Origin: Blastobasis lacticolella
Taxonomy: Eukaryota > Arthropoda > Insecta > Lepidoptera > Blastobasidae
Length of the DNA stretch: 64,000 nt
Assembly: GCA_905147135.1 (NCBI GenBank)
Contig: LR990060.1
Span: forward strand, 11,052,001-11,116,000
Reading direction: 5' to 3'
In this document: positions 1 to 46,588 of the stretch, one piece after another
How the letters are laid out: every line of letters starts with the position of its first letter
Numbering within the stretch: position 1 is the first letter of the stretch
Translations under genes and position numbers: made by a program
The notes under the pieces: model-generated
The model's database searches: none
The model's input: only the letters and a program-made list of their open reading frames with translations
What the model was told of the DNA's origin: nothing

Positions 1-423
1 GTGATATCAGACCTTAAAATCACTGATGTCACAACTGGAGAATCGCGACCCGTAACCCACTATTGGTATCCTGATTGGTCAGACCATGGCACACCTAAAA
101 GCTTGCAAATAGTTGCTGAACTTTCAATAAGGGTAAATAAACAACGAGAGAGATTACTAGAGGGAACCAAGAATGATCTAACAAAACCAGCACCAATTGT
201 CGTTCACTGTTCAGCCGGAGTCAGCCGCTCAGGCACGTTTTGCGCTGCTGATCACGCAATTCAACGGTTAAAGAAAGAAAAAATAATCTGTGTGCAAGAG
301 AGTGTGAAAGCAGTTAGAAAAATGAGACATCGCAGTGTTATGACTCCCGGGCAATATATGTTTATTTATAAAATGATTGAGCATGTACTCTTAGCAGAAG
401 AAAACCTACAAGATACACCATAA
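1..423 (+). CDS. Bracovirus-type protein tyrosine phosphatase, C-terminal part (cut by window edge)
   Basis: Cysteine-dependent tyrosine phosphatase. Bracovirus PTPs are delivered by the wasp into caterpillar cells and act on host phosphotyrosine signalling (family knowledge). Visible here: the active-site loop HCSAGVSRSGTFC fits HCx5R(S/T), and a Q-loop-like QYMFIYKMIEHVL follows. The WPD loop reads DWSDHGTP, so Trp and the general-acid Asp remain but Pro is Ser. The frame is open from base 1 and the first codon is GTG, so the N-terminal half lies outside the window; this is not a start. There is no intron. It stands apart from the PTP cluster at 5-15 kb, outside the LTR element that carries that cluster, so it belongs to a different insertion layer. 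The visible part could encode a functional catalytic core. Confidence 0.85.
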   Translation: MISDLKITDVTTGESRPVTHYWYPDWSDHGTPKSLQIVAELSIRVNKQRERLLEGTKNDLTKPAPIVVHCSAGVSRSGTFCAADHAIQRLKKEKIICVQESVKAVRKMRHRSVMTPGQYMFIYKMIEHVLLAEENLQDTP

Positions 424-701: not shown

Positions 702-1088
702 TTGAGTAATAAAAATAATAGTGATGTAAGTTTTTATCATGGCGCAAATATTGTGAACTGCAAAGTATACTATGCTGTAGATATAATGGAACCTGTGGTT
801 CATTTTGGAGCAGACATCAATGGGAAAGAAGGGCGCGGTAGTTTCACTCCACTGCACTTGTGTGTCTGGAAGAAGGATTATCCTGTAGCTGAATAGCTAT
901 GTGGGATACTAGACGCTGATATAAAGGCCACAAATTATGCAGGAAAGACTGGGCATCAATTGGCTCATTAAAGAGATGACTACGATATGATGAAAATTTT
1001 AAATCAGTCTAGAGCCAAATGTGAACTTTTACTTAGAGAACAGAGTCCATTAAGTAATGATAATAGTAAAGAATTATCAAATCGGTAA
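702..1088 (+). pseudogene. Decayed vankyrin (IkB-like ankyrin) pseudogene
   Basis: Intact relatives bind Rel/NF-kB factors and block immune signalling (family knowledge). One frame carries ankyrin signatures: FGADINGKEGRGSFTPLHLC, then LDADIKATNYAGKTGHQLAH, then DDYDMMKIL. It is interrupted by TAG at 894-896 and TAA at 969-971. There is no in-frame ATG before the first repeat, so the N-terminus is lost as well. The last block parallels the intact ankyrin gene at 6900-7364, which ends with a similar YKMMKMF helix. The order PTP then ankyrin is typical of bracovirus segments. The decay suggests this copy is older than the cluster inside the retrotransposon, although some bracovirus genes are already dead in the wasp. 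Confidence 0.75.
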
Positions 1089-2374: not shown

Positions 2375-2881
2375 TTTGGAGGTCTTGAGTAGGATTATTA
2401 GTTAAACTCCGTAGACAAGTGTGGAATGGATGTATTTACAGAAAATGTGCCTAACTATATTTACAAATACGTACTACCTAAACTTGTGTGACAGATCTAG
2501 TAAAAAGCTATTTGCATTGACCAATGGGAAAGCCCGCCGCGAGATAGCTTCCCCCACCACGCCGCGCGCCGGTGTGGTGCCGCTATAAAAAGGAGGCGTA
2601 GAGCGGCGGACGCCCATTTGGCCGGCGCATCGAGGGACAGCACATCGGAGGAAGCTCGGCGCGTACGGTGGCGACTACAGCGGCGGCGAACTCCGGTGAT
2701 CTTCTGAAGCTGCGCTGGAGCTCCGTGGCGTGAAGAACAATCCCAGACAAGTCGTTCTTTTCAGAACGCAATCTTAAGTTTCGTGACCTAATACGTTCTC
2801 TGTGGCTAAATACGCATTCGTTCTATTTATTATAGAACACGAGTTTCACGACTTTTATACGAATACAATACGGTAGCCACA
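2375..2881 (-). repeat. 3' LTR of the split Gypsy element (left copy)
   Basis: 507 bp. By reading it matches 18053-18559 base for base. On the minus strand it begins TGTGGCTACC and ends CCTCCAAA. A polypurine tract lies just outside at 2882-2893. Confidence 0.9.
2584..2592 (+). promoter_or_regulatory. Antisense TATA box in the left LTR
   Basis: TATAAAAAG lies on the plus strand, opposite to the element's own genes, in a GC-rich setting. Transcription from it would run rightward through antisense integrase toward the viral insert. The same box is in the right LTR at 18262-18270. Promoter function is inference. Confidence 0.4.
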
Positions 2882-2893
2882 GTACTCCCCCTC
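2882..2893 (-). other. Polypurine tract of the split Gypsy element
   Basis: On the minus strand GAGGGGGAGTAC immediately precedes the 3' LTR. This is the expected place and composition for the plus-strand DNA primer. Confidence 0.75.
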
Positions 2894-4149
2894 AAGCGAA
2901 GCGTACAGGTAGTTTGGTGGTGCGTCCGGCTCGTGTCTTGTATTGTGTTGGTCTCGTGTTTCGCATTGTGGTCGGCTGTTGTCTCGATGTAGGTATCTTC
3001 GTTTCAGGGTCGTTTCTGTTGATTTGTTGTCGTTGGGTAGTGGAGTTGTATTCATTTTTAGCGGTCTCGTTCAGTGTGTAGGCAGGCTTGAGTCGGTCGA
3101 TTGATATTTTAGCTTGTCGTTGTGGTAGTTGAACGGTAAATATTTTTCTGTCTCGGTCAATGACCTTGTAGGGCCCCTCGTACGGTGGTTGTAGCGGCTT
3201 TTTTACAGCGTCGATTCTTACGAAAACGTAGCTGCAGGTTTGTAGGTCTTTATGCACGAAGATCGGTCTGTTGCTTGCATGTGATGGTAGTGGTTGCTTT
3301 GGTTTCAGAGTGTTGATTGTTTTTCGTAGTTGGGATACGTAGTTGTAGTCGGCGACTTGCAGATTTTCGGTTTGTGTAGTGGTAGCAAAAAAATCTCCAG
3401 GTAGGCGCAAGTTGTAGCCGTAGGTAAGTTCGGCAGCGCTGATATTTGTGTCGTTACGTAGTGCGGCTCGAAGTCCCAGCAAAACGGTAGGTAATTCTTC
3501 GATCCACGTAGTTTGTCCGGAGAGTCGCGTTTTCAGTGCCGCTTTTAAACTGCGATGCCAGCGCTCGACGATACCGTTTGCTTGCGGGTGATACGGTGTT
3601 GTGCGTGTTTTTTCTATTCCCATTATTTTCGTTAGGTAGGTAAATAGCTGGCTCTCGAACTGTCGTCCTTGGTCGGTTGTGATGGTTTGTGGGCAGCCAA
3701 AACGGGTTATCCAATGTTCGTAGATTACTTTCGCCACGTCTTCGGCGGTGATTTCTTCGGTAGGTATTGCTTCGGGCCATCTTGTAAGTCGGTCGATCAT
3801 TGTAATAAGATAGCGGTAGCCGTGCCGCGTCGGGGGTAGCGGTCCGACTATGTCGATGTGGATGTGCTGAAATCTGTCTGCCGGTGGGAACGAAGATAGT
3901 TCGCTTGACGTGTGGCGATGTATCTTACATTGTTGGCAGCGTAGGCATTGTTTGGCCCAGGTGCCAACGTCCTTGTTCATCGATGGCCAAAAGTATTTTT
4001 GCGTGACAAGCTTTCGGGTGGTGCGTACTCCTGGGTGGCTGATGTTGTGGACTGCCTCGAATGCTATCTTGCGGTACGGCAGCGGTAGGTATGGTCGCAT
4101 ATGTTGAGTAGACGTCTCGCAGTATAGAGTAGTGTTCGAGTTAGGTAAA
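2892..4149 (-). pseudogene. Gypsy pol, 3' part: integrase (separated from RT by the viral insert)
   Basis: Retroviral-type integrase. The open frame continues upstream of the first ATG (4100) to the insert junction near 4149, so that ATG is internal. Visible parts: N-terminal zinc finger (HNISHPG with CLRCQQC), core DDE residues in HIDIVGPLPP, TTDQGRQF and NGIVERWHRS, and a C-terminal tail with KPLQPPYEGPYKV. No stop or frameshift is seen in this half. It lacks its own promoter and start because 11 kb of other DNA separates it from RT-RNase H, so it is probably dead although its sequence is well preserved. The good preservation argues that the split is recent. Confidence 0.88.
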
Positions 4150-4160
4150 CAGGAAAGTTA
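4141..4160. other. Left junction of the bracovirus insert
   Basis: Retrotransposon pol runs to TAAA at 4146-4149, and foreign DNA starts at 4150 with CAGGAAAG. TAAA recurs at the right junction (15224-15227). This is either a 4-bp target duplication or a microhomology. If the last A belongs to the insert, the duplication is 3 bp (TAA) and both insert ends read ACAGG inward. Confidence 0.7.
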
Positions 4161-5097
4161 TCGATCTCGAAACTCGAAAGCTATAGTGACTTAGTCAAAA
4201 TTTGGCACTGATGTATGTATACATCTATAAATGTATATGTATAACGAATTTAATTTTTGAATAAATTATTTATTATTTAGATATAAGTGTGAAACAATTT
4301 GCGAATAAAAATGATAATGTATAGCTTTTTACGATTAGAATTAAAATTGTGAACATATGGAACATACTTCGTATAAGGGGCGGTATTCAAAGAACATCAA
4401 CAGAGTAGGTAAAGAAAACATAAACTCGATATACCCGTTAATAAAATAATTAACGTTTCAACTAATGACTACTGAGAATTTTGGAGCGATAAGCTCCAAT
4501 CAATCATTGATTGACCTTTCGGTAATGAGATTGCGATAGTTCATTTCATTTCCAAGAAGTAATAAAGATAATTGTTAACGAGAATTGTTTACTTCAAATA
4601 TCGTTGGTACCTACAAATTTGGATCACCAGTGCGCCTACGTTACTATCAGTCAACATTGACCTATGAACTAGGTTTTACTCAGTAAGTGTCAATAACATT
4701 TCCAAGGTTTCAAGGATAGGTACTACTTCATGGCCTAACATGGACTTCTTTCGCCCAATTAAATAGATTTATGGTCACTACAGGGAAACCAAAATCAATT
4801 ACTCATACAATAGCGCTTTCAAACCCAGTCTTAATTAAGTCACAACGACATATTGTGGGTGAGTCATTTTGTACCAGCAGTGCGGGATTAACTATAATGA
4901 ACTATAAACTCTGTATTCGCTAGCTACTATTTTAAATTTAAATTGCAAGGTTTGCTATTAAAAAGTGGGTAAAAGAGGACAATAATAAAAAATTGTTATT
5001 ATTTTGATGAAATAACTTTTATCTAAGGTATAAAACACTTATAATAATAATTTTGATACTAAGAGACTAGTCTTAAAAATAAATTACAATATCAACA
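4150..5097. other. Noncoding left end of the viral insert
   Basis: No ORF of note. The first 60 bases contain repeated CTCGAA/TCGA phrases and AAAGCT, and could be one half of a host integration motif. The remainder is AT-rich spacer downstream of the minus-strand PTP. Confidence 0.4.
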
Positions 5098-5982
5098 CTA
5101 CGTCTTCTTAGCAACTAATTTAACATATTCTAAAATCGTTAGATAACAAAATGCATAGTACATAGGTATAGATAAGCAGTTTTTTCTCTGCTTGCGGAGA
5201 TCCCTTACTACAGTTTCTAGGTCAACCGTCGCGCTCTCATCATATTTTGATATGCTGATGTCTAGAGCGCAAAAGACCCCCGTGCGATTTGTTGCAGCAG
5301 AACAGTGGACCACCATAGGAGGGAAGTTAGAGCTCCTGCCGTCCAACTCCGCATATGCTTGAGCCTTTCTGGCTTTGAGGACAAAGTTGAAAAAGTCTGA
5401 TCGGCTCTGAGGCATGCTTTTATGAGACCAGTCAGTGTAGGCAAAGTGTGTAAGGTCCAATGAGTCTCCACTGTCGTCTGTCACCCGCAGCTTGGTCACT
5501 ATATGGTCACGAAAGGTCTTTATTTTCCTTGTTTCAATAGTAAAGTCGCCAAAGAACACTGTCCTTCCTTTCTTCGGGCTCCAATACTGGTAACAAGCTT
5601 CCCGTCCTTTATCCTGTGTCTTTGTCAGCATAACAATGACTCTGGATTGATAAGCAAACACCATTTTCCAAAAATCTTCAGCTGTTGACTTAAGCGGGCC
5701 CTGACAGCACAAGTACTTGTCCAGGGTTTTGTATCCGTTGACATGATTGGCATTAATATAATTGTTTTCTCCATTTTCTGTTGGTAGGATCACCCTGTTG
5801 TAATCAAAACAAGGTAAGAACCAGTATCTATTTTTCATAATATTTTCTGCCTGCATCGATATCTTGCAGCTGTAATTAACCCGTTCGTTTAATAATCTCC
5901 GATGCTGTTGTTCGAGGGTCTTGATTATACTTTCTTCATCGTAACTAACTCCAGACTGTTGTCTTGTGCTAATTCCGCCCAT
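5098..5982 (-). CDS. Bracovirus-type protein tyrosine phosphatase, divergent WPD loop
   Basis: 294 aa, single exon, full PTP length. N-terminal KNRYWFLPCFDYNRV and the INANHVNGY substrate-recognition region are at about residues 50-82, QGPL is near 94, and the active site HCSAATNRTGVFC is near 227-239. HCx5R is kept, but the loop interior is unusual (SAATN for the common SAGVG). The WPD loop has become DWSHKSMP, so the general-acid Asp is missing. It may therefore bind phosphotyrosine substrates with little or no turnover (inference). The start is the first ATG, 80-90 bp downstream of a TATA box. It is divergent from the ankyrin gene at 6900. Confidence 0.85.
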   Translation of the reverse strand: MGGISTRQQSGVSYDEESIIKTLEQQHRRLLNERVNYSCKISMQAENIMKNRYWFLPCFDYNRVILPTENGENNYINANHVNGYKTLDKYLCCQGPLKSTAEDFWKMVFAYQSRVIVMLTKTQDKGREACYQYWSPKKGRTVFFGDFTIETRKIKTFRDHIVTKLRVTDDSGDSLDLTHFAYTDWSHKSMPQSRSDFFNFVLKARKAQAYAELDGRSSNFPPMVVHCSAATNRTGVFCALDISISKYDESATVDLETVVRDLRKQRKNCLSIPMYYAFCYLTILEYVKLVAKKT

Positions 5983-6068
5983 TTTTGAGAATTCACTTTC
6001 GTAGGATAAAAGTCCTTGTTTTAACCAGAGATCAGTGTCAACTGAAAATTTTTGTACTCAGAGTGGCA

Positions 6069-6076
6069 TATTTATA
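6069..6076 (-). promoter_or_regulatory. TATA box of the minus-strand PTP
   Basis: TATAAATA on the minus strand, about 90 bp upstream of the ATG at 5982. Confidence 0.55.
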
Positions 6077-6824
6077 GTCCTGTTTCAGCATTAATATTAA
6101 CTTTTTCCTCCCAGTATCGATAATCTAACCAATATGACGCACGATGTTCCAGTCTTTTGAATTTAATACTTATTTCATCATCATTAAAAATTAATTTTAA
6201 CAATCGAAATTCCCCTGTGGTTAATTAACAAGCCTATCAGCGAGTATAATGTTATCATGAACTTTTTTTCTTTGAATGTTCCTAACAATGGTATTGTTAA
6301 ATTTAGGTATAATTAAAAATCCTGTATATGGACTTTAAATAACTAAAGCGTCGATATGACGCATCACGTTTCAGTACATGAAATTAAATATTTTTTTTGT
6401 TATTTTACCCTATTAATTTTCAAGTAATACTTCCTATACAGTAAGTGAATCGTCATAATGGAGTAAACTTTAAGTAATCAAAAGATCAATATAATAAGAA
6501 TTGCATCATGAATTATACCATAACTTTGTTCCCGGCTGTACAAACAACATTAATATTTATCTATTAGTTTTATTAATTGATAATTTGACTCAATTAAAAT
6601 TTATTTGAATGCATAGAAAAATTCTTTTTCAAGTTACACCAAAAAAGTATAACTTTTTACTTGCTTACACAAGTACACACATGATTTGTAAACAATATGA
6701 AGTAATTAGATTAGCAACGAACTATATGGAGGACACGTGAATTCCGAGCGCGACGACATTGAACCTACGGGAAAACCGGCGATGGAAGTTATTTTTATTT
6801 ATAGATTTGATTATATCAGCTGGC

Positions 6825-6832
6825 TATATAAG
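6825..6832 (+). promoter_or_regulatory. TATA box of the ankyrin gene
   Basis: TATATAAG, 75 bp upstream of the ATG at 6900, the same spacing class as the PTP promoters. Confidence 0.65.
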
Positions 6833-6899
6833 AGTCTTCCAGTAGGATGTAGTATCATTGAAATTCGGGACGTCAAGAAGTAACCAAGCTCTCTAAAAA

Positions 6900-7364
6900 A
6901 TGTCTTCGCGCAAACTTAACAACATTTTTGGCCAAGTAAAGTCTGAAAGAAATAATACTATGTTCCATTTGATTGCTGAAGCAGACCTTGATAATATTTT
7001 GGATCGCATTTGGAACGCGACCCGTCGAAACGAACTGGAGCCAATACTGAAAATAAAGAATGACGACGGGGACACGTGTCTACATAGTGCCGCTAAGATC
7101 CTAAAAGAATCTCGAGCTGAAAGAATAATTGCTCAACTACTCGACATGGGAGCGGATTTGGACGCGCAAGATAGCACAGGAGACACTGTTTTGCACATAG
7201 CAGTAAAACGAGAGGACTACGTGCTCATCGACTGGCTGGTTTTAATGCGTGCTGATATGAATATAAAAAACAACAGTGGACTAACGGCGTATGAAGTGGC
7301 AGAACAAAACAATAATTACAAAATGATGAAAATGTTTTCGAGTGAAAAAGAAAAACAATCCTGA
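6900..7364 (+). CDS. Vankyrin: IkB-like ankyrin protein
   Basis: 154 aa, single exon, the usual length for a viral ankyrin (150-180 aa). Ankyrin repeats are at about residues 57-90 (GDTCLHSAAKIL, LLDMGADLDAQD), 91-123 (GDTVLHIAVKRED, RADMNIKN) and 124-148 (GLTAYEVAEQNN, YKMMKMF). FHLIAEADLDNIL near 22-34 may be a preceding degenerate repeat. Vankyrins resemble IkB without the degradation-signal N-terminus and C-terminal PEST. They retain Rel/NF-kB in the cytoplasm of infected caterpillar cells, damping immunity (family knowledge). The start is the first ATG after a TATA box. The frame is intact, in contrast to the decayed copy at 702-1088. Confidence 0.88.
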   Translation: MSSRKLNNIFGQVKSERNNTMFHLIAEADLDNILDRIWNATRRNELEPILKIKNDDGDTCLHSAAKILKESRAERIIAQLLDMGADLDAQDSTGDTVLHIAVKREDYVLIDWLVLMRADMNIKNNSGLTAYEVAEQNNNYKMMKMFSSEKEKQS

Positions 7365-8642
7365 GTGTTTAGTGAACAAGCTTAGGTCCATCAGCTTATT
7401 GTAATTTTTAGGGTGTTTAAACATAATTTTGAAGCTATTAATTATATCGTATTGATTAGTATTAGGTAATAAGTTTTATGGATAATTTGATTTTATGAGC
7501 CGCAGGTTTAAAGTGTTTTATTAAATGGGTGAATTTTAAGTCAAGGTAATTTTATTACAAATTAGCAACAGGTTCCCTTACGACTAGTTTGGTCTATACC
7601 TATTCAATTTAAATAATCTTTCAATTGTTTCCGTCCACATGAGTCAAATGTTTCAAATTAGGTTCCTCAAAACACTTTGTTATTCAAAACAAGAGTGCAT
7701 GGATGCAACTTTTACACCTAAAGCTGTCAGTTGAACAAAAATGACTCTTATTTCGTAGTCTAGAGAGAAGAGATTATTTTTTTACAGCAATGCAATTAAT
7801 CTTCAGGGCAAACGTGACTTTTACGTCACTCCAGTGAAACCATGAATCATTACTTGTTATTTTCAGTTCAAAATACAAAAGCATTTTTGTAGAATTTTAT
7901 CAGGAAAGTTTCAGTGAAGTACCTAAGCTTCACCTGAATTTCCTAATTTTCATTACATGTTAAACATGTGCTATTTTTTTACGTCTAGTAATAAAATCTT
8001 ATCAGGGGGTCGTTACTTCAAAGCTCTTAAAATTTTACAACTTTCCAAGTAAATTAATGAGTAAATTTATAGTTAGGTGTGTTTATAGTTAGGTGTGTTT
8101 TCCAGAAAATAGGCCTTGACTGATGTCATGTCAAGAATTAGGTGAACACTGGGCCCTTAGTTACGAAATGTCGTTAACATCGCAAAGACTGATCGCTGTG
8201 ATTCATAGAACTGTAGGCAAAATAACTTAAAGCATGTCGCACTCTTATAGAGAAGAAGTTGCAAGATATTTATAATTATAACGCTTATGATTATTTAGAC
8301 GCTGTAAAACATCATGAATGCAAAAATATACAAATTCACGTAAAAAGTGTAACCTAATGTAATTGAGGTTTTTGCGTCATCAATAATGTAATCGATTGAA
8401 AATACGTCATTAAACACTCTTTCTAATGGTCAATGCTCCGATGAACGACCCAATTATATATAATTATTTTGATATTATTTTATAGCCGTCAATCATTAAC
8501 TATTTAATGGGACTTCATATATACATTATTTGCGTCATCAGAACAATAACCTAATTAACCCACCTAATTAGACCGATACTCTAATTGGGTTTTGGAAAAA
8601 ATATACTAATAATGATTGTTATTTTCTGTTAGGTTTTCACAA
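7365..8642. other. AT-rich spacer in the viral insert
   Basis: No gene I can support. A short tandem duplication of about 18 bp (tatagttaggtgtgttt) lies at about 8069-8100. Two TGCGTCA motifs lie at 8373 and 8531. Confidence 0.45.
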
Positions 8643-8804
8643 ATGATTTTAATCAACCACAATAGCTGGACGATAGTTTTATTCGTCGTGTTGACATCTG
8701 ACACTGGTCCCGATAATAAATTTGTCCTCACAGCCAATTGTTTTTTGGAAGAAGTAGAATTACCGTATCATATGTTCGGCTACGTATTATATTTTTATTG
8801 GTAA
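8643..8804 (+). CDS. Short ORF with signal-peptide-like start (uncertain)
   Basis: 53 codons from ATG. A hydrophobic stretch (TIVLFVVLTS) near residues 10-19 could be a signal peptide or membrane anchor, and the C-terminus is aromatic. A splice-acceptor-like ttttctgttag lies just upstream, so this could also be a second exon or a remnant of a longer secreted protein. I do not recognise a family, and chance is a real possibility in AT-rich DNA. Confidence 0.25.
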   Translation: MILINHNSWTIVLFVVLTSDTGPDNKFVLTANCFLEEVELPYHMFGYVLYFYW

Positions 8805-9188
8805 CAGACTTAAAACTGTATTTTTATTGCTTTTAGTAACACATTCCCGAATACATGAAAAATAAAATTTTGTATTCACTCTCTTTAAAATTCAATGCAT
8901 TGTTTTAATAATGCATCAATGACGTTAGTTGGCTAAGGTTATTGAGGTCATATTGTCGTTGACTCTCAAATGCAGACTGTTTTTTTGTCATGTTGTTCTT
9001 GAGAATGGGAGCAAAATAAATGGATGTATGGTAAAACATGCCCGTCCAGTTATACAAAAATGAGCTTTATTTTGAAACATGAAGGATTTTATATTGCTCA
9101 CTAGTCTGTTTCTTTCGACGACAGTTAACGAATACCTTCTGCATCGTTATCTTAATTTATTACCCCGAAAAGGATAACCCGACTCCCT

Positions 9189-9194
9189 ATAAAC
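9189..9194 (+). promoter_or_regulatory. TATA box upstream of the 75-aa ORF
   Basis: TATAAA, 70 bp before the ATG at 9259, the same spacing as the other viral genes here. Confidence 0.4.
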
Positions 9195-9258
9195 CACTGG
9201 ATACTTATGAGTTGCTTATTTCGTGGTGAAGTCTTATTACGGTCATACGTGCATCAGG

Positions 9259-9486
9259 ATGTATTCTTCTGAAGATAGACTAGAGCTTGCAAAAGAAGTC
9301 CTTAGGCTTCAGGAAAAATTTTACCGTTTAAATGTTAAAAGTCCTCAAACGGAAGAAGCTAAGAAACGAAACGACGAAAAGATCCGAATAGCAAGGCAAC
9401 AATATGAAAATAAGAAGTACGAATTGGTCATTATGTGTTCACGAGAGCGGTTTGTTGAGGATTTAGTGCAAATGGCTCTCTTGTAA
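9259..9486 (+). CDS. 75-aa charged helical protein, unknown
   Basis: The first ATG gives 75 aa; GTG at 9223 would add 12. Rich in Glu/Lys/Arg with heptad-like leucines (SSEDRLELAKEVLRL) and a central EEAKKRNDEKIRIARQQYEN, so a helical or coiled-coil fold is likely. A TATA box at the same spacing as in neighbouring viral genes and a less AT-rich composition than its flanks support a real gene. TAA is followed at once by a donor-like GGTAAGTG at 9488, so it may be a spliced gene's first exon. I recognise no family. Confidence 0.45.
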   Translation: MYSSEDRLELAKEVLRLQEKFYRLNVKSPQTEEAKKRNDEKIRIARQQYENKKYELVIMCSRERFVEDLVQMALL

Positions 9487-10156
9487 TTAGGTAAGTGCTT
9501 CTGCTTTATTTTTATTAATCACATCTACGATTATACTAATGGTGATTCATTCAAGGGTCAGCGATAGTTCGTAGAATACTTGAATAGATCGTTTGCATAC
9601 TAAAGTAATTGGAACCGTAATTGTTTTTGAATTTAGGTCACCTGGGCGATTATTATCTGAGCATGCGTAGATTTTACCTCAAAAAGATTCGTTAAAAATC
9701 CACTAGAATAAAGGCACTATAGAGCTTAGTTGAAGTGTGATACGCAAAATGCATTCAAGGTAAATGTCGGTGCATTATTGCATTTAAGAAACAAGAAAAA
9801 AAATCAATTTAAAATACAAAAAAAATTAATACCTACTGTTTAAACTTGCCAATACTTAACAACCTAGTGAGTCAACAATGGACTAGGTAATTTAATTTGG
9901 ATTAATTAATCCTTTTGGGAATTAACTATAAGGATAATGAACTAGGAATACCTCGTTTTATGTATAGCAATTAAAATCATGAACCACATGTAGCTATTTA
10001 ATTTATGCTAACGGTTGGACATTTGCGTAGGGTTTCACGAGGGTATAAAATGCTGTTTACTACAAAATAAATTTAGTTTACAAACAACTGATTAGGAAGA
10101 AACAGTTTTCACCAGTTATTGTGCATAGTTTTTTTTTTTTCTAACAGAATACGCTC
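9487..10156. other. AT-rich spacer and promoter region of the dead PTP
   Basis: No ORF of note. It contains the TATA box at 10044-10050. Confidence 0.45.
10044..10050 (+). promoter_or_regulatory. TATA box upstream of the PTP pseudogene
   Basis: TATAAAA about 107 bp before the remaining coding frame. Confidence 0.45.
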
Positions 10157-10984
10157 GTGACGAAAATCCTGCACCGCAATCATGAATATCAACGACTTTC
10201 TTCACTTTATGGACCAACCAAATCTACTCGTATAGTAAAGGAATTTAACTCTATAAGTCTGGAGCAAGGAGAAGAGCAGAAAGGCTGTATTCCATTGGTG
10301 CATTACCTTTGTCGTAAGAAGCTCAATGATGAAGCAAACCAGGAAGCAAGCTTCATCGACGGTTACGATACCCGCCGGAAATTCTTGTGCATCAAAAATC
10401 CATGCGTGAAAGACCGAGACGTGTTCTGGTAGGCAGTGTGGGACAATAAAGTCCAAATAATAGTGATGACGTGCCAGTTGATGAATCAGGCCTATCAATA
10501 TTGGTCTTCAAAAGAACGTTACACTTTAGCTAGTAAGAAATTTGATGTTAAGACTTGGAAGATTATAATCTTTTCTCACTATACTTTAACTGTCTTAAGT
10601 TTAAATCAAACTGGACCTAAGTACAAGCGGAGCCGTTCAATTTTTCACTATCAGTATACTGCTTGGCCTAGAGAAAAATTTGATCATCAACCAGATGCTT
10701 TTGTAGAGTTTTATAACTTTGTTAATCAAATGTATGTCAAGTTGAAGAAACAAGTAGCTGATAAGACATTTCCTCCTATGCTGGTGCATTGTATCGAGGG
10801 TATTGGCAGTTCTGATGTATTTTGCACGCTAGATATCTGTATCAACCAATTAAAAGCTACAGGAATCGTCTCATTGCCACATACCCTCAAAAAAATGCGA
10901 CAGCAAAAATTTAGGTCCTTTTGCCGCTCTGATCTCTATGTATTATCCTACCAATTAGTCAAAGCATATCTTGATAACAATTAG
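10157..10984 (+). pseudogene. PTP pseudogene with nonsense codon and lost catalytic arginine
   Basis: One frame covers most of a PTP but is broken three ways. There is no in-frame ATG before the first stop; the open frame starts at GTG 10157 or ACG just upstream. TAG at 10430-10432 follows DVFW, where relatives have a Gln codon. The active site reads HCIEGIGSSDVFC, so the essential Arg of HCx5R is Ser. The WPD loop is AWPREK, without Asp. The downstream part reads on to a normal C-terminus (YVLSYQLVKAYLDNN). The catalytic losses could predate the nonsense mutation, i.e. it may already have been a non-catalytic PTP in the virus. Confidence 0.85.
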
Positions 10985-11479
10985 CCCATCAGGCTCTAAT
11001 GTAAGTTTTGTCTTTTCCATTTTTTATAGCTCATTTGACTGATTATAAAGTTTATAATGTATGTTTGAGTTCAAAGTAATTGTGAAATATGAATGAGCCG
11101 CTTTTCTTATGAACTATGAGCCAATATTGTAATTAAGAGTAATATTATCATTGCCATTAGAATGCAGGTATAATTTAATTAAAGTTTACATAATCTTAAC
11201 TCAAGTCTGTTTCTTAGAAATTCGTATCTACTGCGAAAAGTGTCTTTATAAACAAACAAATTTTATGGTTATGTCATTGATAATGTGGACTTGGGGCTTA
11301 CAATAGATATAAAGAATGAGTTATCACTTAATTCCATGAAATAGACATATCAGCAGAGGTTCGTGACCCGGGAGTGTCATCCCTTGACTCGTCATTTAAT
11401 ATAAGCGCCAGTTGATAGATACTTGTATAGTCTTCTTCGGGACCTCATTACGTACAGTCGCATTGTCAAAAAATTAAAA
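10985..11479. other. Spacer with conserved 3' block and PTP promoter
   Basis: Contains the first copy of a 3' block (11118-11190, GAGCCAATATTGTA ... ATTAGAATG) that recurs after the next two PTP genes, and the TATA box at 11400. Confidence 0.55.
11400..11405 (+). promoter_or_regulatory. TATA box of tandem PTP copy 1
   Basis: TATAAG followed by a block (GCGCCAGTTGATAGATACT) that is nearly repeated at 12881 before copy 2. Both boxes lie 79-80 bp before the ATG. Confidence 0.65.
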
Positions 11480-12436
11480 ATGTACTTAAAAATCGAAGTA
11501 AATGACCAAAAAGTAGCTGCAGTGAGTGAGGACGAATTTAGAAGCAGAAGAAATCAACCCAATTGTTTAGAAGTTGTCGGATCGGAGCATAATTACATCA
11601 CGTCACAGCCGCTCATTGGATCGTTTGAGCACTTTTCAAAGCCAGAAAATCAAGACAAAAATCGTTACTTCGACGTCGCCTGCTGGGACGAATCTCGGGT
11701 GACAATTACGCCTAAAGAAGGTAATACTGATTACATCCATGCTAATTATGTTGATCATTATGGAAGACCCAAGAAGTTTGTGGCGACTCAGGGACCTCTG
11801 AAAAAAACAGTTAATCAATTTTGGCAGATGGTCTGGGAGCAGAATTCTCCAATTATTGTCATGCTAACAGGATTCCAGGATAATGGGAATGAAAAATGTG
11901 CGCAATACTGGGCTACTTCTCGTGACAAACAAGATATTTTTAAAACCAATGATTTTTCAATCAGAACATTATTAGAGATCAAGGACAATTCAGGATACAT
12001 TAGGTCACTATTTGAAGTTTATAATTCTACCACCGATGAAACGAGAGTGACACTACATTATCGGTACGTAGATTGGCCAGAGCATGGAACACCTCCCAAC
12101 AGTAAATCATTTTTAAACTTTATTAGAGATATAAATACGCAATATCAAAACGCCTTGAACAACGCAGTGAGTGGGCCAGCACCTGGACCTATTATTGTTC
12201 ACTGTAGTGCTGGGGTCGGAAGAACAGGAACTTTTTGCGCTATAGATTCTTGTATCTATCAACTAGCAAGAACCAAAAAAGTCTCAGTACCCAAAATTGT
12301 AATGCAGATACGCGAACAGCGGCATTTAAGTGTTTTAACTGTAGAACAATATAAATATATTTACACTGTTCTGCATGACTTATTGCAGTTATTTGAAATT
12401 TATCCTATGATAAGGGAACTCTTTTGTGAGCCTTGA
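11480..12436 (+). CDS. Bracovirus-type protein tyrosine phosphatase, tandem copy 1
   Basis: 318 aa from the ATG at 11480, single exon. I prefer it over an ATG 57 bases upstream because it aligns with the start of copy 2 and keeps the 80-bp TATA spacing. Visible: KNRYFDVACWDESRV, DYIHANYVD, TQGPL, FWQMVWEQ, and active site HCSAGVGRTGTFC with HCx5RT intact. The WPD loop is DWPEHGTPP, Asp replaced by Glu, which in other PTPs lowers turnover. Such a PTP may be slow or act as a substrate trap (inference). It is one of a tandem pair with 12960-13907, about 1.48 kb apart, sharing promoter and 3' sequences. Confidence 0.9.
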   Translation: MYLKIEVNDQKVAAVSEDEFRSRRNQPNCLEVVGSEHNYITSQPLIGSFEHFSKPENQDKNRYFDVACWDESRVTITPKEGNTDYIHANYVDHYGRPKKFVATQGPLKKTVNQFWQMVWEQNSPIIVMLTGFQDNGNEKCAQYWATSRDKQDIFKTNDFSIRTLLEIKDNSGYIRSLFEVYNSTTDETRVTLHYRYVDWPEHGTPPNSKSFLNFIRDINTQYQNALNNAVSGPAPGPIIVHCSAGVGRTGTFCAIDSCIYQLARTKKVSVPKIVMQIREQRHLSVLTVEQYKYIYTVLHDLLQLFEIYPMIRELFCEP

Positions 12437-12959
12437 CTGATGTACACGTTTGTTTTGATTATTTTATAAGGTTTAGAAAGTACATTCAATTAAATAAGTG
12501 TGACTATGAAATAAAAATTGAACCAATATTGTATTTAGAAGTAATATCATAATTGTTATTAGAATGTAAGTCTTAATTGATTAAAATTGTTTACACTGTA
12601 TTTGATAGTTTAAATAATCTTTGCAAAAATCAGTAATTAGATTGACACTTGTAGAGTCAATGACTAAAAATTTTGCGTGGGCAGAAAACGGATTTCCTTT
12701 GGTTAACCAGTACCTAAAGTTCTTATCAACGAATTATGCGGGAAACCTACCCGTAACTATGATTCAGAATGAGTACTCCTGATTGCGAAATAATGGAAAT
12801 ATTGTGATTACTAATTGTTCTCGTCAATAAGCGTGGGAAGTAATATCCTGTGGGAGGTAACATCCTATGATTTTAAGAGATATAAGCGGGAGCTGATAGA
12901 TACTAGTCTATTGTCATCCTCGACACAGTACGTGCGGTCATATTGTTTGAATATTTAAA
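12437..12959. other. Spacer between tandem PTP genes
   Basis: Holds the second 3' block (12520-12595) and the promoter of copy 2. No ORF of note. Confidence 0.55.
12881..12886 (+). promoter_or_regulatory. TATA box of tandem PTP copy 2
   Basis: TATAAG, 79 bp before the ATG. The following 60 bases are closely similar to those after the TATA box at 11400. Confidence 0.65.
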
Positions 12960-13907
12960 ATGAATTTAAAATTAATTATGTCTTCCCAAAAATTAACTGC
13001 AGTGAGTGAAGAAGAATTTAGACGAAAAAGATGTCAAGCTGGTTATTTGAACACAATCCGATTCGAACATTACTTAATCATGTCACAGCCGCAAATTGGA
13101 TCGTTTGAGCACTTCTCAAAGCAAGAAAATGAAATGAAAAATCGTTACCCCGACATCATCTGCTGGGACTCTTCACGTGTGAAAATAACTCCACAAAACG
13201 GTGATACTGACTACATTCACGCCAATTTCGTTGACCAGAGTGAAACATCAAGGAAGTTCATAGCGACACAGGGACCTCTAAATCAAACAATTGATAAATT
13301 TTGGCAAATGGTATGGGAGCAAAACTCCCGAATAATTATAATGCTGACAAAATTCCAAGCTGCCGGAAAAGAAACATGTGCTCAATATTGGAACACGGAC
13401 AAAAAACAAGTGAATTTTCAAGCAGGTGAGCTGGCAATCAAGACAGTAGATGTAATACAAAATTCGGGATACATTATAACGACATTTGAAGTTTCTAATT
13501 GCACCACCAAGGAAAGCAGGCTCATTATACATTACCAGTACTTAGACTGGCCAGAACATGGAGTGCCTTCTAAATGCAATTCATTGATGGAACTTATTAT
13601 AGATATGACTGAAAGTCATCAGAAGATTCTAAGAAAAGCAGCAAATGCATCCACTGGACCTGTTATTGTTCACTGCAGTGCTGGGATTGGAAGAAGTGGG
13701 ACGTTTTGTGCTATAAACTCATGTGTAACTCAATTAGCAAGGACCAAGAAACTTTCAGTGCCCGAAACTGTGATACAAATACGAGAACAAAGACGCTCAA
13801 GTGTTTTCGCTGTAGAACAATATGTATTTATTTATACTGTGCTTCATGAGTTTTTGCGGCTATTTGACATGTATTCTGAAGTGAGACAACTCTTTTGTGA
13901 CCCTTGA
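12960..13907 (+). CDS. Bracovirus-type protein tyrosine phosphatase, tandem copy 2
   Basis: 315 aa, single exon. KNRYPDIICWDSSRV, DYIHANFVD, TQGPL, FWQMVWEQ, and active site HCSAGIGRSGTFC (HCx5RS intact). The WPD loop is DWPEHGVPS, again with Glu for Asp, so the change predates the duplication that made the pair. A second Met at codon 7 could also serve as a start, but the first matches copy 1. The last codons and 3' flank (LFCDP, then ttgactgatgta) repeat those of copy 1. Expected role: interference with tyrosine-phosphate signalling in haemocytes or gland cells of the parasitised caterpillar (family knowledge). Confidence 0.9.
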   Translation: MNLKLIMSSQKLTAVSEEEFRRKRCQAGYLNTIRFEHYLIMSQPQIGSFEHFSKQENEMKNRYPDIICWDSSRVKITPQNGDTDYIHANFVDQSETSRKFIATQGPLNQTIDKFWQMVWEQNSRIIIMLTKFQAAGKETCAQYWNTDKKQVNFQAGELAIKTVDVIQNSGYIITTFEVSNCTTKESRLIIHYQYLDWPEHGVPSKCNSLMELIIDMTESHQKILRKAANASTGPVIVHCSAGIGRSGTFCAINSCVTQLARTKKLSVPETVIQIREQRRSSVFAVEQYVFIYTVLHEFLRLFDMYSEVRQLFCDP

Positions 13908-14557
13908 CTGATGTATTGTGCACATTTGTACTAATTATGAGCCAATATTCTACACAGAAACAATATATAATCGTTATTAGAATGTATGTCGTAATTGATT
14001 AAAACTTTTGAAGGAATTGTCACTGTGATTTTCGCGAAATAAAACGACGCGCATACCGCTCGTTTTGTTTTTTTTTTCTTCTAATTATCAGCCTAGCAAT
14101 CAAATGAAAAGAATACTCATATGGTATTGTCATTCTAGAGCAAAAATAGACCAAAGATGACCTACATTATAATCTTTTCATTGTTAAACCGATCTTAGTC
14201 CCAGATATGGGTCATATAAAAGGAAAATTGTGTGCCAGTATTTATAATTACATTCACAGATGACGAATGATGAAATACGTGATGTATTGACCCAATTAAA
14301 AATATATTTTCATATATGACGCACTTCATTATGGTTTAATGTCACTTGAAAACCATAAGGTAATAACTAACAATAATAATATTAATCATCATGAAATAAA
14401 CCACAGAACTACACTAACCACACTCACAAGTTGAACTTTATGATAAGGGATCTTATAAAACGCCAACAAATGTTGATTTATTTTCAATGTTACGGAACCA
14501 TTCGTTGTAGTAACACTTCTACGTCTCACCCTAAGTGAAGCGTTTTCATTTCCTGCT
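13908..14557. other. Spacer with third copy of the PTP 3' block
   Basis: The 3' block lies at 13939-14008, with a TGACGCA motif at 14318. AT-rich, no ORF of note. Confidence 0.5.
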
Positions 14558-14797
14558 ATGGATTCGAAATTATCAACAATTGATGGTGCAGCTGAATTCA
14601 TGCAACGAGCTCAACATCCAGATAACATCGATTTGATCTCTCAAGAACATTCCAACATTCTTGCAATATCGATAAGTGGGACCTGTGAAAACTTTTATAA
14701 GCCTGAAAATTTGTACGTAAAAAATACAAATCCGCTCATTATTTCATCACTGAATATCAAAAATTTATTCAATACACCTACGAGAGATCACTGTTGA
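14558..14797 (+). pseudogene. PTP N-terminal remnant
   Basis: 79 codons, ATG to stop. LISQEHSNI and ENFYKPENLYVKN align by eye with the PTP N-terminus (SEHNYITSQ, EHFSKPENQDKN of copy 1). Everything after the KNRY-like point is missing, including the catalytic domain. It is probably a truncated tandem copy at the edge of the insert, and could still make a short protein. Confidence 0.55.
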
Positions 14798-15223
14798 AAG
14801 AATTATAATTTTGAGTTCAAATACTCTAGGTAAGGACTATCAGTCATTAGTCATAATTTCCGTGAGCACTAAGCTCAAATGTAATACCGACTTTAGAAAA
14901 CTATAGCAGGAAAAAGACTCAAATAACTTATAAATAGTTCGATTCAAAAGATCATTTTTGAGCTACTGACTGGAGACAAAAGAGATAAGATTTGACCTAA
15001 GTCTGATCCCGGCGAGGGAAAACCCCAATTGTTAAATAATGGGAAGATAAAAATTTTACTAAGAGGCAAATATCTTGAAGAAGAGAACATAAAAAACATC
15101 ACATTTTAAGTGTTTTGAGCGTGCTGATTAACACAAAATTTTACAGTTAAAAAAACCATTTTTTTTTATTTACAAATTTTTTTTGGTTTGGAATTTATAA
15201 TTCGACATCAAAATCATCCCTGT
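14798..15223. other. Noncoding right end of the viral insert
   Basis: No gene. It ends CATCCCTGT at 15223. Read inward on the minus strand this is ACAGGGATG, which mirrors CAGGAAAG at the left end. Confidence 0.5.
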
Positions 15224-17173
15224 TAAAGTAATTTTACGTAGGCATAAATTACTTTGTTTCTCGAGCTTCGTTATCGTGCTGTCTCTTTCTTGCACTCTTG
15301 CGATTTCTTCGTAATTGAGTGTTGTTGGACAGGCGATACTTTCGACGCGGCTGAGGGCGTCGGCGACGACGTTATCTTGGCCAGTCACGTGACGAATGTC
15401 GGTGATGAATTCGCTGATGAATTGCAGTTGGCGTGCTCGGCGCGGTAGCTCGGATGGCGATGGCGCCTTGTGTAATACGTAGGTAAGCGGCTTGTGATCG
15501 GTGAAAACTATGGTTTCCCTTCCTTCGAACATTTTTCTGAAGTGCTTGACTGCCATGTAAATAGCTAGTAGTTCGCGGTCGAATGTACTGTACTTCTGTT
15601 GTGCGTCGGAGAATTTCTTCGAGAAGTAGCCGAGTGGTTGCCATCTGTTACAGATGCGTTGTTGGAGGACGGCTCCAGCTGCTTTGTCGGAGGCATCTGA
15701 GAATATCGCCAACGTTCCATGGTGGGACGGGTGGGCGAGTAAAGCTGCCTTTTGAATGCTGGCTTTACAGGCTTCGAATGCAGATGTTGATTGGTCGTCC
15801 CATTTAATTTCTGTTTTGTCTTTCCTCTTCGAATTATGTAGGTAATTACTGAGCGGGGCTTGGATGGTAGCGGCGTTAGGTATGTTCTCTCGGTAAAAGT
15901 TGAGCATGCCGAGGAATCGTCGTAGCTCTTCGATCGTCTTCGGTTTCGGAAAATCGGCGATTGCATTGATTTTCTCTTGTGGAGGTTTTATTCCGTGCTT
16001 CGAGACGTGGTACCCGAGGAAGTTGACTTCGTCTTTGCCAAACACGCATTTCGAAGGGTTGATAGTAATGCCGTATTCTTCTAGTCGTTGTAGGACTGTT
16101 CGAAGATGTTTCCGGTGCTCATCTTCGGTTCGGGAAGCGATGAGGAGATCGTCGACGAATGGAAAGACGTAATCCAGCCCTCGCAGTACTTCGTGGACAA
16201 ACCGCTGAAAGGTTTGCCCGGCGTTGCGGAGGCCGGGGCACATGCGTGGGAACTCGAACAATCCGAACGGTGTTATTATTGCCGTTTTTTCGATGTCTTC
16301 TTCCTTGATTGGCAATTGTTGATAAGCTCGGTTCAAATCGAGCGTAGAGAAGACTTGACAACCGGCGAGGTGGTAGGTAAAATCTTTGATGCGTGGTATC
16401 GGGTAGCGGTCGGGCTTCGTAATACTGTTTAGGCGTCGGTAGTCGCCGCAAACTCGCAGGTCACCGTTTTTCTTCGGTACGATGTGTAAAGGTGATGCCC
16501 ACGGGCTCTTGCTCGGCCGGCACAATCCTTGATCGATCATGCTTTGGAATTCGTTCTTGACTCGATCGTAACGATTGTGAGGTATGGGGCGGGCTCTGCA
16601 GTACAACGGTGGTCCGGAGGTCTCGATGAAATGTTCCACGTTGTGTTTGGGGTTGAGTTTCATCGAAGTGATGCGAGTGATTCCAGGGAAATCTGCTAGA
16701 ATACTGTGGTAGGACTGTTGCAGGTCGATGCTGCGAACTGTAGGTATGTTCGTGTGACAAACTGGTGCGTTGACTGCTAGGTTTGTGACGTCATCGATTA
16801 GTCGGCGGTTCTTGAGGTCTACAATCAGTCGGTGATGTTGAAGAAAATCGGCTCCAATTATTGGTCTGCTGACGTCGGCGATGATAAATTTCCAGCGGTA
16901 TGGTCGGCGTAGGCGTAAATCAAGATCCAACGTCGTTTCGCCGTAGGTAGATATCGCGGAGTTGTTGGCTGCGTAGAGCGTGAATGGCAGCGGTTGCGGT
17001 CGAGTTCCTTTCCTCTTCGGTATGACGGATATATTTGCACCCGTATCTACTAAAAAGGTGAGTTTCGAGTTTCTGTCAGTGACGAATAGGCGGTGTGCTG
17101 TACTTGAAACACTGGTTTCCGCCACAGCCAGTGTTCGTTTTAGTTTTCCGTCTGCTGTGCGGTGAATGAGCAT
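15170..17173 (-). pseudogene. Gypsy pol, 5' part: protease, reverse transcriptase, RNase H
   Basis: 667 codons in the open frame, of which all but about the last 18 are pol. Aspartic protease [13 protein letters not shown] is near residue 40. RT has [14 protein letters not shown] and the active-site box FVDDLLIAS near 330-340. RNase H shows [18 protein letters not shown] and [10 protein letters not shown]. The frame overlaps gag by 34 bp in another frame, so synthesis would need a frameshift. It ends just before the HHCC finger, because the viral insert starts there. No internal stop is seen, consistent with a recently active element. Confidence 0.88.
15218..15230. other. Right junction of the bracovirus insert
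   Basis: Foreign DNA ends at 15223. TAAA at 15224-15227 duplicates 4146-4149, and the pol frame resumes. The last 18 codons of the open frame below 15224 are viral DNA read by chance. Confidence 0.7.
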
Positions 17174-18000
17174 GGCGACGTGCAGCGTCTGGCGCGATCT
17201 CCAAATCGGCGATGGTAGTAGCAGATTGGGCGATGCGGCGAGTGCGGCCGGGGTGGTGAACGGGACGGTGGTCTGCGGTGGTAGCGCTGGTACGACGGGC
17301 TTCGCTGTCTCGAGCGTTGGAAGTGGCCGCGTGTCGATTGCTGCGCTCGTCCTTGCTTTAGTTCCGCGACCTCCATACTAAGCTTCCGAATTTCTTCGAG
17401 AAGGGTTTGATCGTGGGTTTTGTCTTGAGCTAAAGACGCAGGTGTTGAGGACACGGCGGACACTTCGGGCGACTGTTGTAACACGTTGTCGGCGAGGTTC
17501 TCTAAGTCGTCTAGTTTTGCGGTTTTGTTAATATTTTCGCTGACGGCGATTGCAGAGCGAACGGTAGGTGGTAGATTTTTCTTCCAAAGATGCTGCAGCA
17601 CTGGTTCGGACAGCTTTCCTCGGCTGAGCATTTTCATGTGGCGTAGCAGCTGGCTGGGTGTGCGATCGCCTAACTCCACTTCGTTAAGCAGCTTCTCGAG
17701 TTTCCGCTCGTCGCTCTCTTCGTAGACGCTGATGAGACGACTTTTCAGCGCGTCGTAAAATTCGGCGTCGTCGTTAGGTGGGTCGTAGATGATGTCGCAC
17801 ACTTGTTCCAGCTCTGGTTTGCCGAGTTGCGCGATGATCATGTCCACCAGCTGCCGTTTTCCTTTTTTCTGATCCGCTGTGACCGACTCGAATCTGTAGA
17901 ACCATAGTCGTGGGGTGTCGCGCCAAAACTGTGGGATGCGCAGCGAGAGAGCGATGCCTGCAACTTCTTGCTGTTCCCGTTGATAGTCTTGAGTCGCCAT
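17140..18000 (-). CDS. Gypsy gag protein
   Basis: 286 aa capsid/nucleocapsid precursor. [14 protein letters not shown] opens a Ty3-type capsid domain. [13 protein letters not shown] and [19 protein letters not shown] belong to its middle. The C-terminus is Arg/Ser/Pro-rich ([15 protein letters not shown]), then [18 protein letters not shown], a Cys/His box of CxxH...C...C order rather than canonical CCHC. That box is the hallmark I associate with CsRn1-clade elements. The frame is intact. The ATG lies 53 bp inside the 5' LTR edge. Confidence 0.85.
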
Positions 18001-18040
18001 AGTTCCCGGTGCTAAGCTGTGTTCTTGTTTCTTGAACGGC

Positions 18041-18051
18041 GGTGGTCACCA
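18041..18051 (-). other. Primer-binding site, tRNA-Trp-like
   Basis: On the minus strand TGGTGACC starts one base after the 5' LTR. Those eight bases fit the complement of a tRNA-Trp 3' end (established for other retroelements); the following bases diverge. Confidence 0.5.
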
Positions 18052-18052
18052 C

Positions 18053-18559
18053 TTTGGAGGTCTTGAGTAGGATTATTAGTTAAACTCCGTAGACAAGTGT
18101 GGAATGGATGTATTTACAGAAAATGTGCCTAACTATATTTACAAATACGTACTACCTAAACTTGTGTGACAGATCTAGTAAAAAGCTATTTGCATTGACC
18201 AATGGGAAAGCCCGCCGCGAGATAGCTTCCCCCACCACGCCGCGCGCCGGTGTGGTGCCGCTATAAAAAGGAGGCGTAGAGCGGCGGACGCCCATTTGGC
18301 CGGCGCATCGAGGGACAGCACATCGGAGGAAGCTCGGCGCGTACGGTGGCGACTACAGCGGCGGCGAACTCCGGTGATCTTCTGAAGCTGCGCTGGAGCT
18401 CCGTGGCGTGAAGAACAATCCCAGACAAGTCGTTCTTTTCAGAACGCAATCTTAAGTTTCGTGACCTAATACGTTCTCTGTGGCTAAATACGCATTCGTT
18501 CTATTTATTATAGAACACGAGTTTCACGACTTTTATACGAATACAATACGGTAGCCACA
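18053..18559 (-). repeat. 5' LTR of the split Gypsy element (right copy)
   Basis: 507 bp, reads identical to 2375-2881. Identity indicates a recent insertion. Confidence 0.9.
18262..18270 (+). promoter_or_regulatory. Antisense TATA box in the right LTR
   Basis: TATAAAAAG on the plus strand, copy of the box at 2584-2592. It points out of the element into the right flank. Confidence 0.35.
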
Positions 18560-18563
18560 AAAG
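18560..18563. repeat. Target-site duplication AAAG, right
   Basis: Matches 2371-2374. Confidence 0.8.
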
Positions 18564-19524: not shown

Positions 19525-20157
19525 TCATTTTTTGAAAATTTCTACTTGGAAATCATTCCTGTTTATGTATGGTATTTTATCATCCTTGGCATAATTTATT
19601 TTGATATTAGGTTTATTTTCATCAGCGTACAATGATGCGTAAAAATCCGTAGCTATTTTTGTCACTTTTGATCTATAACTTTGTGTTACTCCGGTTTTGT
19701 CTTTAAGGCTGTTGATCCAAGACTTTCCTGCACCTATCCCCTGCTTTGCAATTCTAAGTGATTTATTTCTCTCTAGCGTCGTCTGTATTGTATTCGTATT
19801 AAAGTTTCGTATATCTATTCTTATGCTTCGTTTCACTGCTTTATCTATCTCTCTGTATTCTTGATTTTTCCTATCAGTTACCATACTTAATCTATCTTGT
19901 ATTAATTTCTGAGTATAATTGGACAATTTCCTAACCTTTTTCTTGGATATATTGATTTTATTACTTGCAGTTTTTATACTATTTTTAAGATTATCGTAAA
20001 GAATTTGTACGTCATCGCAATGTTTATCTATTTCTAAAGAGCTGAAAAAGTTTGATAGTTCTAGGCGAAATTGTGTTTTATTAGTTGTAAGCGTTTGTCT
20101 GTCAATATTTCTGATTTTATGTTGAAAAGCTGTATTCCTATTAATCTTTGTTTTCAA
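19525..20157 (-). mobile_element. Non-LTR retrotransposon ORF fragment (endonuclease-RT linker)
   Basis: 210 codons open. KLSNYTQKLIQDRLSMV, YREIDKAVKRSIRIDIR and TKIATDFYASLYADE are typical of the segment between endonuclease and reverse transcriptase in RTE/CR1-like LINEs. No endonuclease or RT core remains, so it is a 5'- and 3'-truncated copy. Confidence 0.7.
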
Positions 20158-46067: not shown

Positions 46068-46546
46068 TGTTACCAACATTCAACACCTCCACTAGCTCCA
46101 TTCCTAATAGGCCTAAACCAGAATAATATATAATAGATATAATTCTAATTGCGACCACTAGCGCCATCTAGTAGCACTTGATTGTTTTACGGAGTCAATC
46201 ATTTCCTTACTCATTCATAAGTTTATTTTCATTATAGTTCATTACCAGAAATAATTATGTTAATTAATTTATTCGTCTTTTATATGTACTATTTACATGA
46301 TACGTTGTTAACAAAAACGTTATAATTATTGTTTAAGTTGTTAAATTCTTTCCGGCTAAATTATGATGGATGATGGTATTTTTCTTGTCTCGGAGGTTAT
46401 AAAAATTTTGCTTAGATTGTGACACATGTGTTATAAATATAACTTTTGATTCGTTACGGTGTAACTCTGGACCATTAAATTATAATAATAGCGATTGAAA
46501 ACGTATCGGCTGCTTATTTAAATCCCCTGAAACCACTTCTGTAACA
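46068..46546 (+). repeat. 5' LTR of the intact Gypsy element
   Basis: 479 bp, matches 52063-52541 on reading. Confidence 0.93.
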
Positions 46547-46548
46547 AT

Positions 46549-46562
46549 TCAGAAGTGGGATC
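46549..46562 (+). other. Primer-binding site, tRNA-Leu-like, displaced
   Basis: TCAGAAGTGGGATC fits the complement of a tRNA-Leu acceptor/T-stem but lacks the usual leading TGG. This displaced type is known for mdg3/micropia elements (recalled). Confidence 0.55.
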
Positions 46563-46588
46563 GGGAACCACAACGGCCCACAAGGACG

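Follow-up and report, generated by a model that had tools for sequence, protein, structure and literature searches.

In the genome of the moth Blastobasis lacticolella, the pol gene of a lepidopteran LTR retrotransposon has very likely been split by a bracovirus circle that a parasitic wasp would have injected and that presumably became integrated in the germ line. The window analysed is a stretch of 64,000 nucleotides of the forward strand of contig LR990060.1 (assembly GCA_905147135.1, positions 11,052,001 to 11,116,000), and all coordinates below refer to it. At this locus an exactly split pol, a left border of the Host Integration Motif, inverted five-base tips, phosphatase and ankyrin genes, a lepidopteran flank and identical LTRs occur together.

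The interrupted element (2375-18559, minus strand) is an LTR retrotransposon of the Ty3 type, in which reverse transcriptase (RT), RNase H and integrase follow in that order. Its 5' LTR (18053-18559, minus strand) and 3' LTR (2375-2881, minus strand; both named in the element's sense) are each 507 bp long and agree at 507/507 sites, the element is bounded by an AAAG target-site duplication (2371-2374 and 18560-18563), and a purine-rich tract, GAGGGGGAG, was spotted by eye just inside the 3' LTR. Apart from the insert, nothing interrupts the reading frames of gag (17140-18000, minus strand; 286 residues, DUF7041) and of the two pol parts. Domain order, LTRs, 4-bp target duplication and purine-rich tract are shared with Ty3-type retrotransposons of Lepidoptera (P0121, and P0129 of Mythimna separata), from which the Blastobasis lacticolella copy differs in being interrupted. 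The named pol relatives among the 120 matches listed include Mythimna, Parnassius and Plutella, as well as one flea. Neither the LTR nor either of the two element pieces recurs elsewhere in the 64-kb window. Another LTR element in the window likewise has identical LTRs (479/479).

Aligned with the uninterrupted homologue P0121, the N-terminal part of pol (15224-17173, minus strand; protease region, RT and RNase H) covers residues 5-654 with 92% identity and no gaps, and the C-terminal part (2892-4148, minus strand; integrase zinc-binding and core domains) covers residues 655-1069 with 87% identity and two gap positions. The split is therefore exact: RNase H lies on one side of it and the zinc-binding domain of integrase on the other, with no pol residue missing at the insertion point relative to P0121. 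An earlier sequence-only reading had described such an exact split, apparently identical LTRs and the AAAG duplication, all of which the alignments bear out; its insert of 11,074 bp carrying PTP and ankyrin genes holds as to cargo (PF00102 and ankyrin matches), while the length comes to 11,075 bp (4149-15223). The GC content is 50% in the element vs. 34% in the insert. The insert starts with ACAGG and ends with the inverse, CCTGT (15219-15223, minus strand), and a search for a terminal inverted repeat gave nothing longer than these five shared tip bases. Outside each tip stands TAA (4146-4148 and again 15224-15226), either a 3-bp duplication or microhomology; the accessible parts of the literature searched held no description of a 3-bp TAA repeat as a mark of bracovirus integration.

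The left end of the insert carries a border of the Host Integration Motif, AACAGGAAAGTTA (4148-4160, plus strand), which matches the published border ACCAGGAAATTTA at 11/13 positions. A score this high within 3 bases was reached at 5 of 20,000 random sites in the window and at 18 of 20,000 sites inside the insert. The right end has the CCTGT tip and matches the longer border at 7/13 positions overall, a non-significant score that was reached by 4344 of 20,000 random sites and does not stand out from chance, and the right border was therefore rejected as independent evidence for the motif. The hexamer AGCTTT, which we take to be the core of the wasp-side junction in bracovirus circles, occurs near the left end at 4177 (minus strand) and 4323 (plus strand), and was dropped as evidence for that junction since it is found six times in the insert. 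The Host Integration Motif has been reported in microgastrine wasps and not in Chelonus inanitus, so the donor was probably a microgastrine.

The cargo of the insert comprises four tyrosine-phosphatase genes or pseudogenes (PF00102), one phosphatase fragment and one ankyrin gene. PTPa (5098-5982, minus strand; 294 residues) retains the HC(x5)R signature and has WSH in place of the WPD loop. It is followed by a vankyrin-like ankyrin-repeat protein of 154 residues (6900-7364, plus strand), an open reading frame of 75 residues without assigned identity (9259-9486, plus strand) and the pseudogene PTPb (10182-10984, plus strand), which has a disrupted frame and lacks the signature arginine. PTPc (11480-12436, plus strand; 318 residues) and PTPd (12960-13907, plus strand; 315 residues) are open phosphatases with WPE at the WPD loop, PTPc retaining the signature, and the fragment is a short frame (14558-14797, plus strand) whose match to the N-terminal region of PTPc is weak, at 32% over 50 residues. 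The genes with intact frames, PTPa, the ankyrin gene, PTPc and PTPd, may each be transcribed from a promoter of their own.

In the phosphatase tree PTPc and PTPd join phosphatases of bracoviruses and Cotesia, apart from cellular PTPN1 and PTPN9 (support 99/97), and PTPa sits on a long branch outside the bracovirus set. This grouping and the 11/13 left border uphold the bracovirus identity proposed earlier for the insert. The closest named relatives come from Cydia pomonella, whose bracovirus-like phosphatases P0001, P0003 and P0011 include matches of 81% identity for PTPd (to P0001) and 71% over 202 residues for PTPc; P0001 and P0011 probably lie on one contig. On the wasp side, Cotesia or its bracovirus comes next, and no donor segment near identity was found, the best named match being 56% (Cotesia vestalis bracovirus). 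A search of a viral-contig collection returned no phosphatase relative for PTPd, and for the ankyrin gene it returned one 37% match, on a metagenome contig.

The motif border at the left end and the inverted tips with TAA outside each are what would be expected if a bracovirus circle had been opened at its Host Integration Motif. After injection of the circular DNA into a caterpillar, the circle would have opened at this motif and shed the stretch of a few dozen bases that separates the two borders, so that these borders became the outer ends of a linear segment, which would then have joined host DNA at TAA within pol without loss of a pol residue. The insert may represent the whole circle. 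The retrotransposon would have inserted before the virus, both recently, and since its LTRs are still identical, the viral DNA was likely captured recently in an inherited genome. At an assumed substitution rate, LTR identity would place the upper age of the viral insertion at about 1 million generations, unless the composite moved as a unit or the LTRs were homogenised.

The former could have happened if the circle had gone into an older copy and the resulting composite of 16 kb had later been retrotransposed with helper proteins; the identical LTRs would then date that copying event, not the viral capture. LTR identity and the AAAG duplication are equally compatible with such a course, which we nevertheless regard as quite improbable: the insert holds 19 AATAAA and 12 ATTAAA hexamers on the element's transcribed strand, so that a full-length RNA of the composite would be unlikely, PTPa is read on that same strand, and neither the LTR nor the two element pieces have a second copy in the window. 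It is highly improbable that the nest is old and that its LTRs owe their identity to gene conversion or to an assembly error in which one LTR was written over the other. The LTRs lie 15.7 kb apart and belong to a repeat family, where conversion or mis-assembly could occur, but gag, both pol parts, PTPa, the ankyrin gene, PTPc and PTPd are all open, as in a young locus, and the second element with its identical LTRs makes young elements unremarkable here.

The host of the element is identified by a gene for an NYN-domain ribonuclease (22305-25422, plus strand), of which three exons were recognised and which lies 3.7 kb from the retrotransposon. Full-length relatives occur in Lepidoptera, to which 60 of the 66 named matches (78 in total) belong, with no named Hymenoptera, in agreement with the earlier assignment of the locus to caterpillar DNA. 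A tree of 30 of these matches places the gene outside the tortricid set; Cydia pomonella, by comparison, is a tortricid host, and the captures in Cydia pomonella and Blastobasis lacticolella were probably separate events.

Outside the retrotransposon, at 1-1085, the window contains a remnant that the sequence-only reading had not included. It consists of the C-terminal part of a second, separate bracovirus-like phosphatase, truncated by the window edge (1-423, plus strand), and an ankyrin-like frame that has decayed, with two stops in frame and Pfam matches under the curated cut-offs (723-1085, plus strand). Border matches of 10/13 occur in the region at 530, 1398 and 1424; the ends of the remnant are nevertheless undefined because the window holds 35 matches of exactly 10/13 on both strands (14 + 21). 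A phosphatase/ankyrin-like pair of this kind is what a proviral cluster might show, and once it had emerged we considered whether the window is wasp DNA, with the insert a provirus or a circle returned to the wasp's own genome, as in the six reintegrations described for Cotesia in the available part of PMC8549517. This origin was rejected on the lepidopteran ribonuclease gene in the flank, and with Mythimna, Parnassius and Plutella among the named pol relatives in the matches listed it can practically be dismissed. Somatic integration in the sequenced larva, although frequent in parasitised larvae of Sesamia nonagrioides (PMC8549517, available part), or a chimeric assembly is extremely unlikely, as each somatic event falls at a different site and would normally be kept out of the consensus by the assembler, and in a chimera neither a pol complete to the residue nor an insert beginning at a motif border would be expected.

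Integration of a wasp-injected circle agrees with what is known from related systems. According to PMC8460044, the bracovirus of Cotesia vestalis has 31 of its 33 phosphatase genes and all five of its ankyrin genes on circles with the motif, and PMC8549517 gives 12 to 85 somatic integrations per host haploid genome for parasitised larvae of Sesamia nonagrioides. As far as these two sources were available, the integrations of Cotesia vestalis (PMC8460044) and Cotesia typhae (PMC8549517) share with the Blastobasis insert a phosphatase and ankyrin cargo and, as proposed for the latter, opening of the circle at the motif to give ACCAG.../...CTGGT-like ends. They differ in being somatic and from parasitised larvae, whereas the Blastobasis insert stands in an assembled genome and is presumably germline; its right border is also weak and its target is a retrotransposon. 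The accessible portion of Gasmi et al. 2015 (PMC4574769) likewise describes bracovirus-derived genes in germline DNA of moths and butterflies, with no complete circles reported there for Lepidoptera, and insertions in the monarch lineage were traced through the species phylogeny to an ancestor of about 5 million years ago. Compared with these cases (PMC4574769, same portion), the Blastobasis segment spans from the motif border to the opposite tip and is likely younger than the monarch insertions.

Germline bracovirus insertions are already known, and the self-dating nest is what the present locus adds. Heisserer et al. 2023 (msad050), to go by the title, reportedly describe germline chromosomal polydnavirus integrations in lepidopterans; among the literature matches listed, no title mentions a bracovirus segment sitting inside an LTR retrotransposon. 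Within one genome, a retrotransposon with identical ends would bracket a viral capture from above, and such limits are rare. The locus also combines one well-kept integration border with an older bracovirus-like remnant nearby. Tentatively, and with considerable doubt, we suggest that it may have been hit twice by wasp viruses, with a complete circle so recent that it should still be unfixed in the living species, roughly 3 kb away from an earlier and independent capture. Should the insert prove polymorphic in the moth, it would open a direct view of the earliest generations following such a transfer, in which the phosphatases may decay, be silenced or be put to use. If one phosphatase lineage has indeed been captured more than once, in Blastobasis lacticolella and in Cydia pomonella, this would suggest that moths retain viral phosphatases.

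A Ty3-type LTR retrotransposon lies on the minus strand of the window (2375-18559), with LTRs of 507 bp each (2375-2881 and 18053-18559) that show no differing site between them and with AAAG bordering the element at both ends, as the sequence-only reading had claimed. Its gag is an open frame (17140-18000, minus strand), and the pol frame is open on either side of a single interruption. According to Pfam, the first pol part carries reverse transcriptase and RNase H and the second the zinc-binding and core domains of integrase. The first part is 92% identical to P0121, a homologue without the interruption, and aligns gap-free to its residues 5-654, and the second part aligns to residues 655-1069; thus no residue is missing at the break, and the exact split between RNase H and integrase proposed earlier is confirmed. 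The nested insert had likewise been placed correctly to within one base (4149-15223, 11,075 bp). Another LTR retrotransposon lies at 46068-52541 (plus strand) and has a single 1461-residue frame (46589-50974), LTRs identical at 479 of 479 sites (46068-46546 and 52063-52541) and GTAC on either side, so that young elements are not unusual in this stretch. A 210-residue open frame at 19525-20157 (minus strand) has no Pfam match and resembles a piece of a non-LTR retrotransposon.

The insert has a GC content of 34%, compared to 50% for the element, and is flanked by TAA outside each end, perhaps a 3-bp target duplication, perhaps shared microhomology. Genes, open frames and pseudogene sequence make up about 41% of it: the phosphatase PTPa (5098-5982, minus strand), an ankyrin gene (6900-7364), an open frame of 75 residues (9259-9486), the phosphatase pseudogene PTPb (10182-10984), which lacks the signature arginine and has a broken frame, the open phosphatases PTPc (11480-12436) and PTPd (12960-13907), and a short frame with weak likeness to a phosphatase start (14558-14797). 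PTPc and PTPd retain the HC(x5)R signature, and their catalytic loop reads WPE; WPD is found in six of the eight relatives aligned. The loop of the Cydia pomonella phosphatase P0003 also reads WPE in place of WPD.

In one account of Cotesia vestalis bracovirus, the borders of the Host Integration Motif, at which circles open on joining host DNA, are given as ACCAG and GAAATTTA, plus their inverses; on integration the intervening stretch of about 40-70 bases is dropped, and 31 of 33 phosphatase and all five ankyrin genes lie on motif-bearing circles (PMC8460044). At its left end the insert has AACAGGAAAGTTA, which matches a motif border at 11 of 13 positions. Elsewhere in the window this score is reached at one plus-strand position and nowhere on the minus strand; within 3 bases it was attained at 5 of 20,000 positions drawn at random from the window, and inside the insert at 18 of 20,000. 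The right end has the matching tip CCTGT, and since its 13-base score of 7 is common among random sites (4344 of 20,000), it contributes the inverted tip only. Candidate wasp-side junction hexamers occur at 4177 and 4323, but the hexamer is present six times across both insert strands.

PTPd shows 81% identity to a predicted codling moth (C. pomonella) protein and 56% to a phosphatase of Cotesia vestalis bracovirus, and PTPc is 71% identical to C. pomonella P0011 across 202 residues. A tree was built from four window sequences and 17 of the 120 matches listed; it puts PTPc and PTPd within a 14-row set with bracovirus and Cotesia phosphatases, separate from cellular PTPN1 and PTPN9 (support 99/97), with P0011 as the partner of PTPc (100/99); PTPa sits on a long branch outside this set. 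The stick insect Dryococelus australis also has a predicted protein (P0010) inside the bracovirus phosphatase set, which may reflect either contamination or an unexpected host. C. pomonella has at least three bracovirus-like phosphatase genes (P0001, P0003 and P0011), nearest to PTPd and PTPc, on contigs of 505,925 and 126,355 bases; P0001 and P0011, both listed with the former length, probably share one contig. These genes are probably that moth's own captures.

On the right, 3.7 kb away, lies an NYN-domain ribonuclease gene with exons near 22305-23081, 23172-23347 and 25321-25422. Of its 78 matches 66 are named, 60 of them from Lepidoptera and none from Hymenoptera; the remaining six, from cockroach (twice), beetle, springtail and two flies, align over no more than 21% of the query. 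A tree with 30 of these 78 matches places the gene within Lepidoptera, without a supported position in any single superfamily and outside the tortricid set (100/99). This makes the host a moth or butterfly and probably not a member of Tortricidae, from which we infer that, provided the insert in this window is young, C. pomonella acquired its copies in separate captures.

Outside the retrotransposon, window positions 1-423 hold the end of another phosphatase (Pfam PF00102), with 38-42% identity to eight proteins of the bracovirus set and, in the tree, a long branch inside the 14-row set with no supported partner. It is followed at about 723-1085 by an ankyrin-like frame that contains two in-frame stops and whose Pfam matches fall under curated cut-offs. 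This pair (1-1085), which is cut off by the window's left edge, suggests that bracovirus DNA had inserted here earlier in a separate event; the retrotransposon may have landed within that DNA or next to it. A low-GC stretch at 1500-2370, ending in a CACACA run, shares no long match with the window's right part and may be part of the older remnant or a separate repeat.

If insertion came after the element was in place, the insert is necessarily the younger of the two. With 2.9e-9 changes per site per generation, zero differences in 507 bases put the 95% upper bound at about 1.0 million generations, and with 1e-8 at about 0.3 million, both rates being general values and not those of this species. 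Later copying of the composite of element and insert, or homogenisation of the LTRs, would void the bound. The 19 AATAAA and 12 ATTAAA motifs on the insert's transcribed strand argue against copying via RNA. The reading as a bracovirus insertion stands with the limits given above, those on the age bound included.

Germline insertions of this virus group in Lepidoptera are reportedly, by its title, the subject of Heisserer et al. 2023. Bracovirus insertions in lepidopteran germ lines have already been described in one published account (PMC4574769). What looks uncommon here is a long segment with a retained integration border, a built-in clock and a second remnant nearby.
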